In this document: piece by piece, positions 21,897 to 35,507 of the stretch | Position numbering within the stretch: the first letter of the stretch is position 1 | Layout of the letters: every line of letters begins with the position of its first letter | Origin: a virus | Length of the DNA: 40,353 bases | Direction: 5' to 3' (one strand) | IMG/VR virus record: IMGVR_UViG_3300009553_000047 | Location: 1-40,353 of that record | Translations under genes and position numbers: made by a program | Notes under the pieces: model-generated | What the model was told of the DNA's origin: nothing | The model's input: the letters and a program-made list of their open reading frames with translations, nothing else | The model's database searches: none

Positions 21897-21978
21897 AATT
21901 ACCTTTTTATTATGCTTGATTTTTAAATTAAGTAAATATAAATCTTAGGACGTGGATAAACCACGAAGGAAGGTGAGT

Positions 21979-22662
21979 ATGTGTGATGAACATAAAAAAA
22001 ATTGCTGCTGCTGTATCCAAGGTCCGCAAGGCGTTCCTGGATTACAAGGCGAACAAGGTATTCAGGGTGTCCCAGGCCCTCAGGGAATTCCGGGACAGAC
22101 AGGCGCTCAAGGACCTCAGGGATTGCAAGGACCTCCAGGAGTATGCTCAGATGAGCAATGCAAAGGAGGTAGCGGATGCGAATCGTTTTGTAACGTTTTC
22201 GCTAACCCTCCTCAATTGCTTGCTGCTTTTGGTACTGGTTTGGATGCTGTGCTCTTTCAGGGACAAAATGCTGTTTCTGTAGCAGATTTTGACCTGTCAC
22301 AAATGGGTGTGGATGGATCGGTTAAGTTTTTAAAATCTGGTACTTATTCTATAAATTGGGGTGCTGAAGCTAAGGTGGAACCTCCAGTTCCTAGCCCAAC
22401 ACCAAGCTTTAGCTTTGGTCTTTGGGTAAACAACATTATTGTTCCAGGATCCACTTTATCAGGATATACTCAAGCTCCGAATGACGATACGCTTCACATT
22501 TCCGGTGAGGTCACGATCGTTATTAATGCAGGAGACGTCCTCAAATTGAGAAACGCCTCTGCATTAGTGGTTAATATGAACCCAAACACTATTGGTATAC
22601 AGTTCCCTGTTACCGTGGCTTCTCTCAATATGCATTGTGTTAAAGGTCCGATGATTCCTTGA
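21979..22662 (+). CDS. Collagen-like protein with globular C-terminal head, 227 aa
   Basis: ATG 21979 is preceded by GGAAGG; a GTG at 21952 would add nine residues. Residues 1-13 hold a CCCC run. About 14 uninterrupted Gly-X-Y triplets follow (about 15-56, [19 protein letters not shown]), then a short CxxxC/C-rich hinge ([17 protein letters not shown]), then a beta-rich head of about 140 residues (residues about 77-227) resembling BclA/C1q-like trimer domains (ADFDLSQMG...[12 protein letters not shown]...FSFGLWVNN). It should trimerise through the triple helix. It is outside the tail operon, so it could be a virion fibre or a protein made to alter the host surface. Confidence 0.75.
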
Positions 22663-23325: not shown

Positions 23326-23799
23326 ATGACTGAAGAAACAAAAGAAAAAAAGAAAAAAGGCGGCGCTCCAAAGGGACATCCTCCTTATAATGTAAATGGC
23401 GAGGGTGGTAGGCCAACTATCTATACAAAAGAAGTCATTGAAAACTATGCGGATGAGTTTGAAAAATGGCTTGAAGATGATGAAAACTTCTGGTTTAAAG
23501 ACTTTGCAATAAAAAACAAATTCTCTCCTGATCTATTTCATCGTTGGGCTGAACAAAATGAAAGGTTTTCGCGAGTTTTAGAACAAGCTAGACATAAACA
23601 AGAATCAAAGTTGTTTAAATGTTCTCTAACTAATACTTATAATGCAAATATGGTGAAGTTTGCTTTAAATGTCCATCATGACTGGATTGAGAAGAAGCAG
23701 GTCGTACATTCTAATGATCCTAATTGCCCTGTTCCAGAGTGGATTATGAAACAAGAAGGAACGTCAAAAGACCTTGTGAGCGATGACAAACAATGTTAA
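23326..23799 (+). CDS. terS: Terminase small subunit, P22 gp3-like
   Basis: 157 aa (P22 gp3 is 162). ATG 23326 with AGGA six bases away. After a basic, disordered start (GGAPKGHPPYNVNGEGGRP), residues about 40-75 form helices with a helix-turn-helix-like segment (KDFAIKNKFSPDLFHRWAEQ), then ERFSRVLEQARHKQESKLF typical of the family. The C-terminal tail probably contacts the large subunit, whose gene overlaps by 17 bases. It should recognise phage DNA for packaging. Confidence 0.8.
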   Translation: MTEETKEKKKKGGAPKGHPPYNVNGEGGRPTIYTKEVIENYADEFEKWLEDDENFWFKDFAIKNKFSPDLFHRWAEQNERFSRVLEQARHKQESKLFKCSLTNTYNANMVKFALNVHHDWIEKKQVVHSNDPNCPVPEWIMKQEGTSKDLVSDDKQC

Positions 23800-25258
23800 T
23801 CCTCTTGCAGATCCATTTTGGAGAATAAACAATCTCTATTATATAGTAGATAAGCGAGGGAAAAAGACTCTTTTTAAGCTTAATTGGGCGCAAGAAGAGC
23901 TTTATCGAAACATGTGGTATTGCAATGTAATACTAAAAGCGAGGCAGCTTGGTATTTCTACATTTGTGTGCTTATTGTTTCTTGATCGTTGTCTTTTTAA
24001 TCCTGATCAGTCTGCCGGTATTATTGCCCACACGCTCGAAGATGCTCAGCAGATGTTTAGAAGAGTTAAAATCGCTTATGATTCACTTCCTCAACAAATA
24101 AAATCTGTAATATCGGCGGACAATGATACGTCACAAATGCTCAAGTTTAGCAATGGTTCTTCTTTACGCGTCGGAACATCCCTTAGATCAAGTACCTTCC
24201 AGTTTTTACATGTATCTGAGTTCGGGAAAATCTGTGCGAAATATCCCGACAAAGCACAAGAGATCGTTACGGGCTCTCTCAATACAGTTGAAGCAGGACA
24301 ATATATCTTTATTGAATCTACTGCGGAAGGTCGATCAGGCTATTTTTACGACATATGCAAGCATGCAGAACAGCAAAAGAAAGAAAAAAAAGAGCTTAGC
24401 AAACTGGACTTTCGTTTTAATTTCTTCCCGTGGTGGAAAGAGCCATCTTATCGCATTGGCAATACTTTTCCGATTAACGATGAGATGCAAAAATACTTTG
24501 AGCATCTAAAAGGGTTAGGGATAGAACTAGATGAAGAGCAAAAAGCTTGGTATGTCTCCAAAGAAGTTATGCAGAAAGAGGATATGCGGAGGGAATTCCC
24601 CTCTACTCCTGAAGAAAGCTGGGAAGTCTCTAATGAAGGACTATATTATGGTAAATACCTTACTATTATTAGAGCTGAGAAAAGGATCGGGTTTATCCCC
24701 TACGATGAAGAATTGCCAGTACATACAGCATGGGATTTGGGATATAACGATTCGAATGCAATTTGGTTCTTCCAGATCTACAAAAAAGAAATACGTCTCA
24801 TCGATTATGAAGAGGGTAGCGGAGAATCTCTCTCCTACTGGCTTGGTGTATTAAGAAATAAAGGGTATGTCTACGACAAACACATAGCTCCACATGATAT
24901 AATGGTTCACGAATATAGCTCTGGTATGACAAGACAAGCAGCAGCCCGTAAGATGGGATTCAATTTTCTTCCTGCTCAAAAAGTTGATATTATCCCTGGA
25001 ATAGATGCCGTGCGTGCAATCCTTAATAGATGCTGGTTTGACGAGAAGAAGTGCGAGAAAGGCATTAAAGCTTTAGATGCATATAAGAAGGATTGGGACG
25101 ATAGAAACGGCTGTTGGAGATCTCAACCACTTCACAATTGGGCTTCACATGGTGCCGATGCATTTAGAACTTTAGCTACAGGTTTACATTATGTCGAGCC
25201 TAAATCATACAATACGCAACACAACCCACAACAATATATTCAATCTAGGTTTGGGTGA
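23783..25258 (+). CDS. terL: Terminase large subunit (ATPase/nuclease)
   Basis: 491 aa (P22 gp2 is 499). Walker A-type loop KARQLGISTF (about residues 52-61), a coupling segment AHTLEDAQQMFRRVK, the Walker B/catalytic carboxylate stretch QYIFIESTAEG (about 172-182), then the RNase H-like nuclease domain with TAWDLGYNDSNAIWFFQ (first Asp at about 316), DIMVHE, and HGADAFRTL (last Asp at about 461). It drives DNA into the prohead through the portal and cuts the concatemer. It begins inside the small subunit gene. Confidence 0.93.
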   Translation: MTNNVNPLADPFWRINNLYYIVDKRGKKTLFKLNWAQEELYRNMWYCNVILKARQLGISTFVCLLFLDRCLFNPDQSAGIIAHTLEDAQQMFRRVKIAYDSLPQQIKSVISADNDTSQMLKFSNGSSLRVGTSLRSSTFQFLHVSEFGKICAKYPDKAQEIVTGSLNTVEAGQYIFIESTAEGRSGYFYDICKHAEQQKKEKKELSKLDFRFNFFPWWKEPSYRIGNTFPINDEMQKYFEHLKGLGIELDEEQKAWYVSKEVMQKEDMRREFPSTPEESWEVSNEGLYYGKYLTIIRAEKRIGFIPYDEELPVHTAWDLGYNDSNAIWFFQIYKKEIRLIDYEEGSGESLSYWLGVLRNKGYVYDKHIAPHDIMVHEYSSGMTRQAAARKMGFNFLPAQKVDIIPGIDAVRAILNRCWFDEKKCEKGIKALDAYKKDWDDRNGCWRSQPLHNWASHGADAFRTLATGLHYVEPKSYNTQHNPQQYIQSRFG

Positions 25259-25319
25259 TTGATTAAATCTTCACTTTATTGTAAAGTCTAATTTTGATCA
25301 CTCGAGAGCGGAGGCCGTC

Positions 25320-27476
25320 ATTTCGTACTATCCCACCCCATGGAACAGTAATTTAGAGCCTAATTCTGGTAATGTAAGAAGCTGGCTTGACAATCTCTAC
25401 TCGCGTTTTCAGCCCATAGAACAAGCTAGGTGGTCACAAAGTAATATCGACACTTTATTTTATGCCGGAAACCAAACCTTTATCAATAGAAACCTAAGCT
25501 TCTCTCCTGGAATAACGTCTCAGCAATACTATTTCAATCTAGTCCAGCAACCGGTTAACATGGTAACTGGCTTTCAGCGTCAGCACAGGAAATCCATCGT
25601 TTATCAAGCCTCAGATGGTGCAGATCCTCACACTACAGATCAATACACGCGACTCATAATGAATGTATGTCAAAAAGAGGGGATACATGAGCAATATTCA
25701 AAATCTTGTGAATTAGCCGCAGTAGCCGGTATGAATCTTATGCAACCATATCTTGACTTTACTGGTGATGATCCTGCGCAAGGCCAGTTAAAGGTTAAGA
25801 TATGGGAGTATAATTCTTTTCTTGTTGATCCATTCTTTCGTAATCCTGATATGTCAGATGCTCAATTTGTTTGGTGTCAGGAATACATTACAAAGAGAGT
25901 TGCGGAGGAGAGATTTCCTGGTCAATTATCTAACATTAGACCCATGATGGGAACGCCTCAACGCTATGGTAATTTCTACTTCCTTCCTGAAAACTATAAC
26001 ATGTCACGTAACGATTTAATGGTGCTCAGCTATGTGTGGTACAGATGGACCAAGAAAAGACAAAGACTCTATTCCCGTAAACTTAATTTATTCTTTGACT
26101 TTGTTAAAGGGAAAGAAAACCTGGAAGCTATCCTTTATAATATACCAGACATGGAAGTCGTAAATGTTGATTCGCCGTGCTGGAAAGTAGCTGTCGTTTT
26201 AAATGATCAGCTTATGTTTCAAGGAGATAACCCGCTTTGGGATGGTCCAGAATGTCCTTTTATTCCTAACTATTGGAACTATGACCCTCATATTAATCAG
26301 TTTGAGTTAAGGTCTAGGTCTCTAATATTTCCTATGCGTTCTTCTCAATTCCTCATGAATTACAAGATAATCAATAATAATGATATTGCAGCGGCTACAA
26401 TTAACGCAGGATGGAAGCGTAAGATTGGTGCTGTGGCTAACGAGGACAATCTTAAAAAGGCTGGTCAAGGATGGGATGTGATCATCAACGAAGGTTATGA
26501 AATGACTGATGTTGAGAAAATCATTCCTTCTGCTGTACCTGAAAGCGATCTTGCACTTGCTGATCAAATGATGTCATTGATATTTAAAACGTCTGGTATT
26601 GATCTTGAGAACTGGTCTGGGCAGAATGAGAAGCAGATATCCTCTCTAACGCTATTAATGAAACAGGCAGCTAATCTATTACCATTTCAAAAGTATTTCG
26701 ATCAGTGGGATATGGCTTTAAAACTGGTTGGAGAACGTAGTCTTCAAATTCTTATGCAGAATTGGAGCCCTGAAAAAGTAGAGATTATGCTTGGTGAGGA
26801 GCCCTCAGAGCATTTTTACAGTAAGATCTTTGCTAAATATAATACTGTGGTTGAAGAGGGATTGCTTACAGCTACACAGAAGAACTTACAAGCTCAGCAA
26901 ATGCTTGATATCAATACTACATTTGGAAGAGAGGTTATTCCTCCAAGCATGATTATCAAGGATATGAATATTCAAGGTAAAGCTGAAATAATGCAATTCT
27001 TGCAGCAACAAGAACAGCAGGCCTCTACAATGCAGCAACAACAGATGGAAGTGCAACATGCGTTTGAGCATGCAAAACTTCAAGAATTGATGACTAAAGC
27101 AGCTGCAAATATAGCTAAAGCGCGCGAAGATCATTCAAGAAGTGAATCTAATCTAGGTCTTTATGAAGAAAGATTAAGCATGATAGAACGAAATAGAGCG
27201 ATGTCGCTAAAAGAAAAACAATCGGCTCTTAATCAACTTCTTGAAAGCATACAGAAATATGGACAAATCGAAACAGAATATGCCGAGAACAAGCTTAAAA
27301 TAGATGAATTCCATATTGAGGCTGAAGAAGAAGCAGAAAAAAGAGACGTAGAAAGAAGAACTCAAGCAAATAAGTTTTTGATGGAGATCCTCAAAGGAAT
27401 ACCAATGATGGATGAAAATCAAGGAAATATGTTACAACAAAATCAACAACAACAGCCAGAAATGGCGATGAGGTAA
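25320..27476 (+). CDS. Portal protein, P22 gp1-like, probable ATT start
   Basis: The frame is open from 25263, and clear portal sequence (YYPTPWN, then NVRSWLDNLYSRFQP) precedes the first in-frame ATG at 25560. The only start that fits is ATT at 25320, five bases after a perfect GGAGG. This gives 718 aa (P22 portal 725). The C-terminal about 170 residues are a long Gln/Glu/Lys helix region (from about residue 550), like the P22 portal barrel. It forms the 12-mer DNA channel at the head vertex and docks the terminase. The downstream gene follows after two bases. Confidence 0.85.
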   Translation: MSYYPTPWNSNLEPNSGNVRSWLDNLYSRFQPIEQARWSQSNIDTLFYAGNQTFINRNLSFSPGITSQQYYFNLVQQPVNMVTGFQRQHRKSIVYQASDGADPHTTDQYTRLIMNVCQKEGIHEQYSKSCELAAVAGMNLMQPYLDFTGDDPAQGQLKVKIWEYNSFLVDPFFRNPDMSDAQFVWCQEYITKRVAEERFPGQLSNIRPMMGTPQRYGNFYFLPENYNMSRNDLMVLSYVWYRWTKKRQRLYSRKLNLFFDFVKGKENLEAILYNIPDMEVVNVDSPCWKVAVVLNDQLMFQGDNPLWDGPECPFIPNYWNYDPHINQFELRSRSLIFPMRSSQFLMNYKIINNNDIAAATINAGWKRKIGAVANEDNLKKAGQGWDVIINEGYEMTDVEKIIPSAVPESDLALADQMMSLIFKTSGIDLENWSGQNEKQISSLTLLMKQAANLLPFQKYFDQWDMALKLVGERSLQILMQNWSPEKVEIMLGEEPSEHFYSKIFAKYNTVVEEGLLTATQKNLQAQQMLDINTTFGREVIPPSMIIKDMNIQGKAEIMQFLQQQEQQASTMQQQQMEVQHAFEHAKLQELMTKAAANIAKAREDHSRSESNLGLYEERLSMIERNRAMSLKEKQSALNQLLESIQKYGQIETEYAENKLKIDEFHIEAEEEAEKRDVERRTQANKFLMEILKGIPMMDENQGNMLQQNQQQQPEMAMR

Positions 27477-29947: not shown

Positions 29948-30018
29948 GAATGAGAACGGATGTAGTACGTTTCGTCCACGGATCACCATATCAATATAAA
30001 ACCTAATTCAAGGTTTAT

Positions 30019-30507
30019 ATGACTATTACAACTACTGGTTCCTTGGGTCCTATGATCCTCCAGTCACTAGCGCCGTCGATGTTATATACCCCGACGCCTG
30101 GTATGCCTTATATTATCGTGGCGGATAAAATTTCCATGCCACCAAATGGCGGTACAACATGCCGTTTTATGAGACCTAGAGCACTAACACCCCCAACAGT
30201 GCAACTTGGTAATAGTGGTATTGATCCACCAGCACAAGTTCCACAACGGGATATCATAGACGCTCAAATGGCCTTCTTCGGTACTGGATGTATCATCAAT
30301 GAACAGGTTATTTTACAGGACCAAGAGGGTGTATTAGCTTGGGTCTCTGATAGACTGGCTGTAGCAATGAGACAGGCAGAAGATTTAATTTTAAGAGATT
30401 ATATCTTATCTGCTGCTTCACAGATTAATGCTGGCGGAGGATCCAATGGCTTCAACCCGACCAATCTAGGTCTAACAGACTTTAGCTTGGTTGCTACAAC
30501 ACTCGAT
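30019..30507 (+). CDS. Major capsid protein, exon 1 (residues 1-163)
   Basis: ATG 30019, ribosome site in AAGG upstream. The reading frame otherwise runs to a stop at 30564, but from 30508 it is intron. The exon covers MTITTTGSLGPMILQSLAPS and VPQRDIIDAQMAFFGTGCIIN, typical of HK97-fold coat proteins of the P22/N4 gp56-like group, with the AMRQAEDLILRDYI helix. It ends in ...ATTLD in phase 0. Together with exon 2 it gives 326 aa, about 100 shorter than P22 coat, possibly without the extra insertion domain. Place after the scaffold supports the call. Confidence 0.85.
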
Positions 30508-31577
30508 AAACTTTGTGTCGAGTATAAATCTTTGGTAATTGACTTGGAGTGCCTGGCTGCGTAAGCGGAGGTTAACAAGGCGGAAGGCGAAAGCCACCGT
30601 GAGAGACTAAATCCAGAGACCCGAAAGGGATGCGATAGTCCGACCCATGAATATATATGAAATCATGGAGACTAGCAGAAATGACTAGTCCGCTTAAATA
30701 ATAGGTTGGTTGAGTTGACGAGCTTTTTGATAAATTTCTTCTCTTCCAGAGAAATCTTTGGAAAGAACTTTTTCCCTAAGTTTCATCAATTCAGCGCAAA
30801 TAGGTTTTTTGTGAACCAGAAAAGGAAAAATACCTTGAAGAATAGGATCAAGTTGCAAATTTGCAATTCTCCAAAGCATTTGGTTTCTACAATTAGGAAG
30901 ATGACTTTTGTCCAAAAAATGGAATTGTCCTCCAAATTTCCTAGAAGCCCAGTAAAAAAATGGAGACTTGGAATTATTACATTGCAATTGAGCACGATAA
31001 GTGGGAGTTTTTCCCCTTTTTTGAATTACTTTGTTAATGTCGAGACTACACTCTGCATCAATAAATCCTGCAAGATAAGCAAAATCTTCTTCAGTAGGTT
31101 TAAGTGTATTTCTAACCGATTCAATCTCTTCTTTAAGAGAATTTTGAATGAGATAAGTTTCTTCTTTAAGTATTTTCATAGCCTTAACAAGGGATTTCCT
31201 AGAATCTTTAAAGTTAAGGGATCTGAAGTTAAGGAAAACATCGCATTCTTTAGATTTCTCGATAAGATAAGGTTTTATTCGTGCAAGAAATTTGTATCCT
31301 TCTTTGGTAAACACAAAATGATAGGATGGAACTCTGTTTTTTTGTTTTGTTTTTTTAACTTGAATCGTTCCTTCGAAATGATCGTTGAACCATTCAATGT
31401 TATCAAGATGAGTAGAAATAATAGAGAAGGTGTCTTGAAAAAATGGAGAAGTTTTAATTTCTCCAATATAAAAACACCCATCTCCATCGATATAACCTGC
31501 TGCGTATGCTAACCATGTTTCATTCATGAAAGAATGATAACATTTATGCATTATTTGAGTCAATAAGTAACAGTAAG
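30508..31577 (+). ncRNA. Group I intron in the capsid gene (1070 nt)
   Basis: P1: exon end CUCGAU (30502-30507) pairs with the guide GUCGAG (30517-30522), giving the U.G pair at the cut. P10: UUUGU (30512-30516) pairs with 3' exon ACAAA (31578-31582). The intron ends in G (31577). The core shows P6-type GGC-GAAA-GCC (30586-30595), P7 GACTA/TAGTC (30605-30609 and 30636-30640), P8 CCC-GAAA-GGG (30620-30629), and P9-type hairpins (30646-30667 and 30670-30690). Exon join keeps phase 0. Exact boundaries are my prediction; the core match to the group I pattern is seen directly. Confidence 0.88.
30694..31551 (-). CDS. LAGLIDADG homing endonuclease, antisense within the intron
   Basis: 285 aa from ATG 31551 (or 277 from 31527); a TTG start at 31581 would cross the splice site and is less likely. 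Two LAGLIDADG motifs, LAYAAGYIDGDGCFYI (about residues 14-29) and FAYLAGFIDAECSLDI (about 156-171), show a monomeric two-domain enzyme. In the second motif the usual DG pair is EC; Glu may still serve as the acidic catalytic residue. It should cut intron-less capsid genes and spread the intron. It is read against the capsid gene, so it needs its own promoter. Confidence 0.88.
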   Translation of the reverse strand: MHKCYHSFMNETWLAYAAGYIDGDGCFYIGEIKTSPFFQDTFSIISTHLDNIEWFNDHFEGTIQVKKTKQKNRVPSYHFVFTKEGYKFLARIKPYLIEKSKECDVFLNFRSLNFKDSRKSLVKAMKILKEETYLIQNSLKEEIESVRNTLKPTEEDFAYLAGFIDAECSLDINKVIQKRGKTPTYRAQLQCNNSKSPFFYWASRKFGGQFHFLDKSHLPNCRNQMLWRIANLQLDPILQGIFPFLVHKKPICAELMKLREKVLSKDFSGREEIYQKARQLNQPII

Positions 31578-32069
31578 ACAAATAACGCTTATAAATTTAT
31601 GAGCGGTATCGAGGGAATGGATCGATTTGGTACAGGCCCTATAAGAAGCGCTTATTTCATGATTAGCTCAACAGAGCTTCAATCTGATTTTGACGCGCTT
31701 GTAGGTCAGGGTGTATTAAACAACTGGAATTATCCTTCAAATGCGTCTGCATTACCTCTAGAATGGGGTTCTGTATACAACATTAGGATTTTAACTAGTT
31801 CCGAAGCGCCTGTGGCTAGAAATGCTGCTATTGATAGCGACGGTGATGTAGCCGACGTTTATTATAATGCTGTGATGGGCAAACAAGCTGTGACACACAT
31901 ATCTCAAGATGGTTTTTCCATGAACTTGATTTATCGTGGTCCAGAGTTTAGCGGTATGTTACAACAGAATTGTACTCTTGCAGTTAAGTTTGCTCAATCG
32001 CAAGCGTTAACACAAGACACCGCGATCCGTAACCTTGTTTGCACTAGAAATAGTGCTTTGGGGGTGTAA
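31578..32069 (+). CDS. Major capsid protein, exon 2 (residues 164-326)
   Basis: From the predicted splice point the frame reads TNNAYKFMSGIEGMDRFGTGPIRSAYF, continuous with exon 1, and ends at TAA 32069. The region MSGIEGMDRFG...SEAPVARN...AVTHISQDGFSMNLIYRGP is the conserved C-terminal half of this coat family. An apparent ATG at 31599 lies inside the exon and has no ribosome site, so it is not a separate gene. The next gene starts two bases after the stop. Confidence 0.85.
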   Translation, partial: TNNAYKFMSGIEGMDRFGTGPIRSAYFMISSTELQSDFDALVGQGVLNNWNYPSNASALPLEWGSVYNIRILTSSEAPVARNAAIDSDGDVADVYYNAVMGKQAVTHISQDGFSMNLIYRGPEFSGMLQQNCTLAVKFAQSQALTQDTAIRNLVCTRNSALGV

Positions 32070-34301: not shown

Positions 34302-35507
34302 ATGAATTTCGTCAGTAATGTCTTAACATACATGAGAAGATATCTTAAAACGCCTTCAAACCAGTCTATAACAGATGATCTACTTATTGATTATCTGAAT
34401 AGGTTCCTTCTTTTTGATGTTGACGCTAGAATGCAACTTTTCGATTTTAAGAAGACATATACTTTTGAAACACAACCTGGTGTTGATCGCTACAATATGC
34501 CTCTTTATGATCCTCAGATTGAGAATGCGTCAACAAACCCATCTACAATTGGCTTATATCCCGTTTATCAAGGGTTTTTGGATAATGTTTATGTAAATGG
34601 GTATAGGGTTCAATTTACTACATTACGTGATCAATTTAATACTATATGGCCTCCTTGGGTACAGCAAAACTTAGTTGTAGGTCAAGGAGATGGTACCGCA
34701 GGACCATATACTCTTCAAATTCCATTGTCTCCAGGAAATTCTACAACCCCTCCAATAAATCCTCCCATCCAGTGTTTATTGAGAGGGCACGTAGACATGC
34801 AAGGCATTATTGCTTCTGGAAATAATATCGATCCTCCTTTAGGCAATACTCTAAATACGAATATTCCCGTAACAAGCATCTCTCCAGCGGTTTATTTTGT
34901 ATCGTCGGATGCATCGGGGGCTAATGTTGTCGTTCAGGACAGTGGAACATTCTTAACTAGCAATGTAAACTATGGACTGCTAATGGCTCCTGGGAATGCC
35001 CCGAACAGCTATTCGACGCTATCAGGTGGTTATAGTACCACATTAAACACCGTGAACTATTTGACAGGGCAGGCCGTTGTGACTTTTCCGTCAGCTATTC
35101 CATCGGGCGTTAATATTACTGCCCAGTGTTCATATTTTCAATGTGGATTACCTAGATCGATTTTGTATTACAACAATACATTAACTCTTAGAAGCCCTCC
35201 TGATAGGCAATATTTAGTTTCATTGGACGCCTACATGTCGCCAGCTGCTTTCTTGAATTCTGAAGCTGCTTTACCATTCGCATACATGGGAGAATATTTG
35301 GCCCTGGGCAGCGCAAGAAAAGTAATGTATGACACTCAAAACGATGAAATGTTTCGATTTTACGAACCTATATTTAAAGAGCAGGAGCTTTTAGTTTGGA
35401 AAAGAAGCCAAAGGCAATGGACTGCTACAAGAACACCCACAATCTATTCTCAAGGAATGCCAGGATATCAATCAGGCTGGAATAACCAAGGATCTAATAT
35501 TATATGA
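34302..35507 (+). CDS. Head-tail adaptor-type protein (gp4 position), 401 aa
   Basis: Starts on the base after the previous stop. The N-terminus is helical (VSNVLTYMRRYLKTPSNQS...LLIDYLNRFLLFDVDARMQLF), as in head-tail connector proteins that dock below the portal. A large beta-rich insert (about residues 110-280) follows, and a helical part returns near the C-terminus (YMGEYLALGSARKVMYDTQ). P22 gp4 has 166 aa, so this one is much larger. Position and N-terminal pattern support the call. Confidence 0.55.
   Translation: MNFVSNVLTYMRRYLKTPSNQSITDDLLIDYLNRFLLFDVDARMQLFDFKKTYTFETQPGVDRYNMPLYDPQIENASTNPSTIGLYPVYQGFLDNVYVNGYRVQFTTLRDQFNTIWPPWVQQNLVVGQGDGTAGPYTLQIPLSPGNSTTPPINPPIQCLLRGHVDMQGIIASGNNIDPPLGNTLNTNIPVTSISPAVYFVSSDASGANVVVQDSGTFLTSNVNYGLLMAPGNAPNSYSTLSGGYSTTLNTVNYLTGQAVVTFPSAIPSGVNITAQCSYFQCGLPRSILYYNNTLTLRSPPDRQYLVSLDAYMSPAAFLNSEAALPFAYMGEYLALGSARKVMYDTQNDEMFRFYEPIFKEQELLVWKRSQRQWTATRTPTIYSQGMPGYQSGWNNQGSNII

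Follow-up and report, generated by a model that had tools for sequence, protein, structure and literature searches.

The late genes of a soil-type bacterial virus raise the question of where translation of its portal gene begins, and whether the start codon used there limits how much portal protein is made. The window, meaning the whole stretch of DNA analysed, is a virus record of 40,353 bases with a P22-like late gene block, in which a gp3-like packaging gene and the gene for the terminase large subunit (TerL) are followed by the portal gene and two further small genes, then by a coat gene that is split in two and by genes for neck and tail (Table 1). A gene with collagen-like triple-helix repeats (PF01391) lies just 5' of the packaging genes, at 21952-22659. 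TerL gave PHROG terminase matches, with E values to annotated terminases as low as 7e-29. The portal protein matched PF16510 (P22_portal) with an E value of 3.7e-47 across profile positions 45-594 of 594, and phrog_156 (portal) with an E value of 1.6e-34. Its PF16510 score of 161.6 bits lies over the curated cut-off of 26.1, most of the protein is covered, and the two packaging genes lie directly upstream. The window portal and its relatives have the protein family and the TerS-TerL-portal gene order in common with P22-like portal genes, but differ from them in that 84% of members have non-AUG starts. A tblastn search of INPHARED, a collection of sequenced phage records, returned no match to the window portal family.

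Table 1. Features of the portal region and late gene block (window coordinates)
Feature	Coordinates	Strand	Details
gp3-like packaging protein	23236		upstream of TerL
Terminase large subunit (TerL)	23783..25258	+	ATG start, TGA stop 25256-25258; PHROG matches, read from sequence
Predicted hairpin in TerL-portal gap	25260..25301	+	outer stem TGATTAAA/TTTGATCA, inner stem ACTTTA/TAAAGT; RNAfold model
Shine-Dalgarno (SD) sequence GGAGG	25310..25314	+	5-nt spacer CCGTC before ATT
ATT start codon of portal	25320..25322	+	aligned codon of start type in all 152 distinct homologs
P22-like portal protein	25320..27476	+	718 codons counted from ATT
Hairpin-insert site of relatives	25428..25433	+	AGG-TGG (Arg-Trp), no insert
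Major capsid (coat) gene, 5' part	30019..30564	+	ATG start, control gene
Probable head-to-tail adaptor	34302..35507	+	401 aa; ATG start in window; AlphaFold model and structure comparison

Start site of the portal gene

In the window, the open portal reading frame spans 25263-27473, and the in-frame stop that precedes it (TGA, 25260-25262) lies 60 nt before the start. The first-pass annotation had proposed that the gene starts at ATT, because no in-frame ATG, GTG, TTG or CTG lay between this stop and the clear portal sequence. Direct reading of the codons from 25263 to 25319 (TTA AAT CTT CAC TTT ATT GTA AAG TCT AAT TTT GAT CAC TCG AGA GCG GAG GCC GTC) bore this out; AUG, GUG and UUG are unavailable at the portal N-terminus. 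The first ATG, GTG or TTG of the frame is the ATG at 25560, 80 codons 3' of the ATT at 25320. The GGAGG described as lying five bases before ATT-TCG-TAC is also in place, a strong SD at a fixed short spacing, and the sequence encoded after Met is S-Y-Y-P-T-P-W-N. The other in-frame ATT upstream, at 25278, is without an SD.

Viral contigs were scanned with portal, adaptor-like and DNA-pattern queries, and genome contigs were scanned once. This yielded 315 loci with a portal match, from which 152 distinct portals were retained after removal of duplicates and two misanchored loci. The comparison of homologous portal starts suggested by the first-pass annotation was carried out on this set, and the same codon position was the N-terminus in all 152. 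The codon aligned to 25320 was ATT in 43, TTG in 34, ATG in 25, ATC in 23, ACG in 14, GTG in 11 and CTG in 2, so that every portal had a start-type codon in this column (the ATG lies one codon up in L150 and two codons down in L165). The near-cognate codons ATT, ATC and ACG, the class that IF3 discriminates against, account for 80 of the 152 (53%). None of the neighbouring columns had such a make-up, and the codons just upstream were unconserved and frequently included stops. The composition of the column and the lack of conservation upstream fix the start site without the use of any start-codon rule.

Two near relatives, L002 (93% identical in protein sequence) and L003 (91%), both have ATT behind GGAGG, and the site is shared by the other relatives, which excludes a sequencing error that destroyed an ATG. 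A tree of 141 portals, constructed with the start codon left out, indicated at least 74 changes of the codon and at least 39 switches between the near-cognate and the other state, with start function retained; changes in such number likewise argue against a sequencing error. The weak class is conserved in about half of the family and the exact codon is not. An AUU start is therefore an apt description for the window, but too narrow a label for a family that drifts among AUU, AUC, ACG, UUG, GUG and AUG.

It is exceedingly unlikely that translation begins elsewhere, either at ATG 25560 to give a short portal or through readthrough or frameshift entry from the terminase. Although ATG 25560 is the first canonical start, the 80 residues 5' of it are conserved family-wide, in agreement with the first-pass reading of them as portal sequence. 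Entry from the terminase is opposed by an in-frame stop 0-5 codons before the start in many relatives (such as L005, L009 and L019), and readthrough or frameshifting was excluded by these upstream stops and by gaps of varying length. Initiation at ATT is supported by its position, by the SD spacing, by the family-wide start column and by the immediate upstream stops, and comparison across the family indicates that portal translation almost certainly starts at ATT 25320.

Start codons and inserts of the late genes

Other genes of the same phages served as controls. TerL and coat starts were called under scoring that favoured ATG, and short families were covered by anchored surveys. TerL started with ATG in 72 of 79 cases, with TTG in 4 and with GTG in 3. 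Coat starts were ATG in 50 of 51 under the ATG-favouring scoring and in 84 of 86 and 88 of 90 in the enlarged set; neither gene had a near-cognate start. Families 33723, 35504 and 36085 had ATG only, wherever a start was found. When the ATG-favouring scoring was applied to portals, 59 of 110 were still near-cognate. Because the controls are mostly ATG, the habit is specific and is not a decoding property of the host, and genome-wide use of odd starts was ruled out. Unusual decoding in host or phage, such as an altered initiator tRNA or a lax IF3 that made AUU an ordinary start, might be entertained for a family with no INPHARED record, but is very improbable given that in these genomes ATG starts nearly every coat and TerL gene, as it does in most of the remaining late families, and that no tRNA gene was found in the window.

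One other gene clearly showed the habit. Among 101 distinct relatives of the gene at 34302, starts were ATG in 60, TTG in 18, ATC in 9, ATT in 8, GTG in 3 and ATA in 3. Near-cognate starts (20/101) were thus a weaker habit here than in the portal; the members that had them carried longer SDs than those with ATG (P = 1.5e-7), and the spacing was mostly 6 nt. ATA, present in three of these relatives, was never found in the portal family. The AlphaFold model of the 34302 product (pLDDT 71) had as its best Foldseek match a podophage portal-tail chain, with an E value of 0.011. In VIA-align, the top 18 rows were all phage portal, neck or tail-complex chains (181-243 residues; Z scores of 5.8-9.2). 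On the basis of this model, 34302 is probably a head-to-tail adaptor. It would then form another 12-copy ring.

Both the portal and the coat gene carry inserts in this group of phages. A hairpin insert of 47-54 nt is present in seven distinct portals (L028:3015-3068, L080, which is identical to L198, L109, L120, L132, L176 and L206, the last listed on the reverse strand). It lies about 37 codons into the portal, always between ...QP(I/V)EQ(S/A)-Arg and Trp-Asn-Gln..., and consists of CGG, a GC-rich hairpin of 16-17 bp with one or more in-frame stops, a short linker, and CGA, CGG, CGT or CGC, followed by TGG. Outside the insert the portal ORF is intact, and the L028 insert causes a frame shift. 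Hairpins of this kind are essentially absent from the rest of the loci, and the insert was gained or lost at least 6 times on the portal tree. It resembles the translational bypass of T4 gene 60, in which a 46-codon ORF1 is followed by a 50-nt gap with a stop and a stem-loop after the take-off codon (PMC11194080). Removal at the RNA level is an alternative to bypass. This insert may prove a greater surprise than the AUU start.

The coat gene of the window, whose 3' part matches phrog_1357, is split by an insert of about 1 kb (30565-31598) that contains an ORF for a LAGLIDADG endonuclease on the minus strand (30694-31596; PF00961, E value 1.9e-6). The insert has group I intron-like sequence motifs and no Rfam match. 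Of 49 related loci, about half likewise have a capsid gene broken into two or three pieces, which lie at variable distances from one another. A group I-like insert of some 230 nt, which has motifs in common with the window capsid insert, lies inside or just before the portal in L152 (L152:10200-10420), and group I-like insert sequence is similarly placed in L088, near 10212. At the site of the hairpin insert, L152 has in addition 30 nt of inserted in-frame sequence that includes a TAA.

Start codon and Shine-Dalgarno strength

The mean SD:anti-SD energy of portals was -5.3 kcal/mol for ATG, -7.5 for NTG (GTG, TTG or CTG) and -8.7 for near-cognate starts. With a strong SD defined as a match of at least 5 placed 5-6 nt from the start, 67 of 80 near-cognate portals had one, compared to 17 of 47 NTG and 1 of 25 ATG portals (Fisher test, near-cognate versus ATG, P = 2.5e-13). 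The spacing was exactly 5 nt in 64 of the 79 near-cognate portals that have an SD. Across 26 phylogenetically independent pairs, a weak codon coincided with a strong SD in an average of 17.5, with the opposite relation in 2.7 (paired sign test, median P = 0.0013); when SD strength was defined less strictly, the paired result was weaker (median P 0.013 to 0.13). In the coat gene, by contrast, ATG with a good SD is common, with an SD of 4 or more in 79 of 90 loci and a strong one at 5-6 nt in 29 of 90, whereas this combination is almost absent in the portal. The strong anticorrelation between codon and SD strength, seen also in the independent pairs, indicates that the portal codon affects a rate under selection. 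Stabilising selection for a low rate of initiation would be expected to produce such a trade-off, although a lower bound on the initiation rate combined with drift would explain part of it too.

Structure in the initiation region bears on whether the codon matters at all. Across the family, the 38 nt before the SD, folded together with the start region of the portal, were 3.8 kcal/mol more stable than shuffles (P = 6e-14), and the same type of region in the coat gene (about 29980-30030 in the window, and homologs) lay 2.7 kcal/mol below shuffles (P = 2e-10). In six other genes, the excess was weak in one (27479) and not significant in five. The predicted window hairpin, 42 nt directly after the terminase stop, has its exact form in common with L003 only. 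Since hairpin shapes differ among relatives, the hairpin was given no role and no RNA family was built; an Rfam scan of the window returned no match. The unpaired probability of the portal SD was barely different from that of shuffles. Sequestration of the SD as a means of attenuation in strong-codon members was rejected, as this probability was equal by class (0.26, 0.25 and 0.25).

These data were weighed against a relaxed constraint, in which another step, RNA structure at the ribosome binding site or coupling to the terminase, limits portal synthesis and the codon drifts freely. The excess of structure just described fits this explanation, as do the rapid turnover of the codon and counts that lie near those expected from composition except for ATA and CTG (ATT 43 versus 39, ATG 25 versus 19, GTG 11 versus 10). 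It does not account for the codon-SD anticorrelation or for adjoining genes in which no such drift occurs, and a median TerL-portal gap of about 71 nt (65 measurable loci) indicates that tight coupling is not general. Tight coupling of the ATG portals to the terminase was likewise rejected: gaps of at most 15 nt occurred in 4 of 11 ATG and 3 of 39 near-cognate portals, and the gaps were not significantly different. We consider relaxed constraint unlikely.

Portal dosage and known weak starts

The reading we favour, to which we assign a probability of roughly three in four, is that a near-cognate start behind a strong SD weakens initiation and so sets a low dose of portal. Sequence comparison shows that the ribosome is positioned on AUU by the strong GGAGG exactly 5 nt upstream. 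The fMet-tRNA would pair poorly with AUU, AUC or ACG, IF3 would reject most such complexes, and the initiation rate would be kept well under that of AUG with an identical SD. Selection would then keep portal synthesis in a low band, within which codon, SD strength and spacing drift against one another. The device probably serves stoichiometry, with a dodecameric portal and hundreds of coat subunits encoded in one late gene block; in related phages the portal is present in 12 copies and the coat protein in far more. The first-pass suggestion of a dosing device is strengthened by the portal being an outlier among the genes tested, by the ATG of the coat gene, by the codon-SD trade-off and by the probable adaptor sharing the habit in part of the family; the effect on dose itself is one that we infer.

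Some observations weigh against or qualify dosing through the start codon. Gene 33723 of the neck region (192 aa) has ATG at every start found. ATA was the portal start in 0 of 152, compared to about 37 expected from base composition, about as common as ATT was expected to be, an absence for which the dosing reading does not account. In TerL an SD is present in 15 of 79 loci and the AUG starts are mostly without one; TerL presumably reaches a low output in this way, so that a near-cognate start is not the sole low-dose solution. More tentatively, the output of portal-vertex genes may be held in a narrow low band by drift on a surface of equal rates defined by codon, SD strength and spacing, on which codons that IF3 discriminates against are the most frequent solution; the ratio of neck to coat proteins, and perhaps also the moment at which capsids nucleate, would then in effect be set by host initiation factors.

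Codons such as AUU, AUC and ACG are discriminated against by IF3 (PMC4611024, PMC5472188), and the near-cognate start of ccpN varies in efficiency with growth medium (PMC13009471). From these reports one might suppose a regulatory switch, in which the same codons tie synthesis of the portal, and of the adaptor, to the level of IF3 or to initiation fidelity and so time neck assembly. About half of the family uses AUG, GUG or UUG, which are discriminated against little or not at all, so that such sensitivity is not conserved, and an IF3-like gene was not found among the window proteins scanned; a switch of this kind is improbable.

Low dosing by a weak start has parallels in bacterial genes. AUU limits translation of E. 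coli infC, where IF3 discriminates against it (PMC5472188), and of E. coli pcnB, as reported in work cited in PMC13009471. These are host regulatory genes with one conserved codon, whereas the portal gene is a structural gene of phages, in which codons turn over fast within a conserved weak class. Like the portal, ccpN of S. aureus and B. subtilis (AUA) and cvfC1 of S. aureus (AUU) combine a non-canonical start with an extended SD, and in poor medium the S. aureus starts reached roughly 10% of the AUG level (PMC13009471); both are bacterial genes, and the AUA of ccpN is the codon never used in the portal family. The GTC start of Streptomyces sigR, behind the SD AGGAGGTG, limits SigR relative to RsrA and thereby sets stoichiometry against a partner protein (PMC5472188). 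That case is confined to GTC or GTT in one genus and is experimentally proven and IF3-dependent, while the portal case is comparative only. On the features compared in sequence, the portal start belongs with the attenuated non-canonical starts of infC, pcnB, sigR and ccpN.

A search of the open-access literature for AUU or ATT starts in phage genes returned no phage portal case. Within that literature, and as far as shown here, a viral structural gene family with weak starts as the commonest solution is new, as is quick codon turnover inside the weak class together with co-variation of the SD. Known bacterial near-cognate starts are mostly isolated genes, whereas in the portal family a single start site comes in about 150 natural versions, which allow a direct test of how an evolved expression level depends on start codon, SD and IF3 together. 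Gene callers restricted to ATG, GTG and TTG would shorten or miss the portal in roughly half of such phages. The findings further imply that low-copy parts of the capsid may be dosed at initiation.
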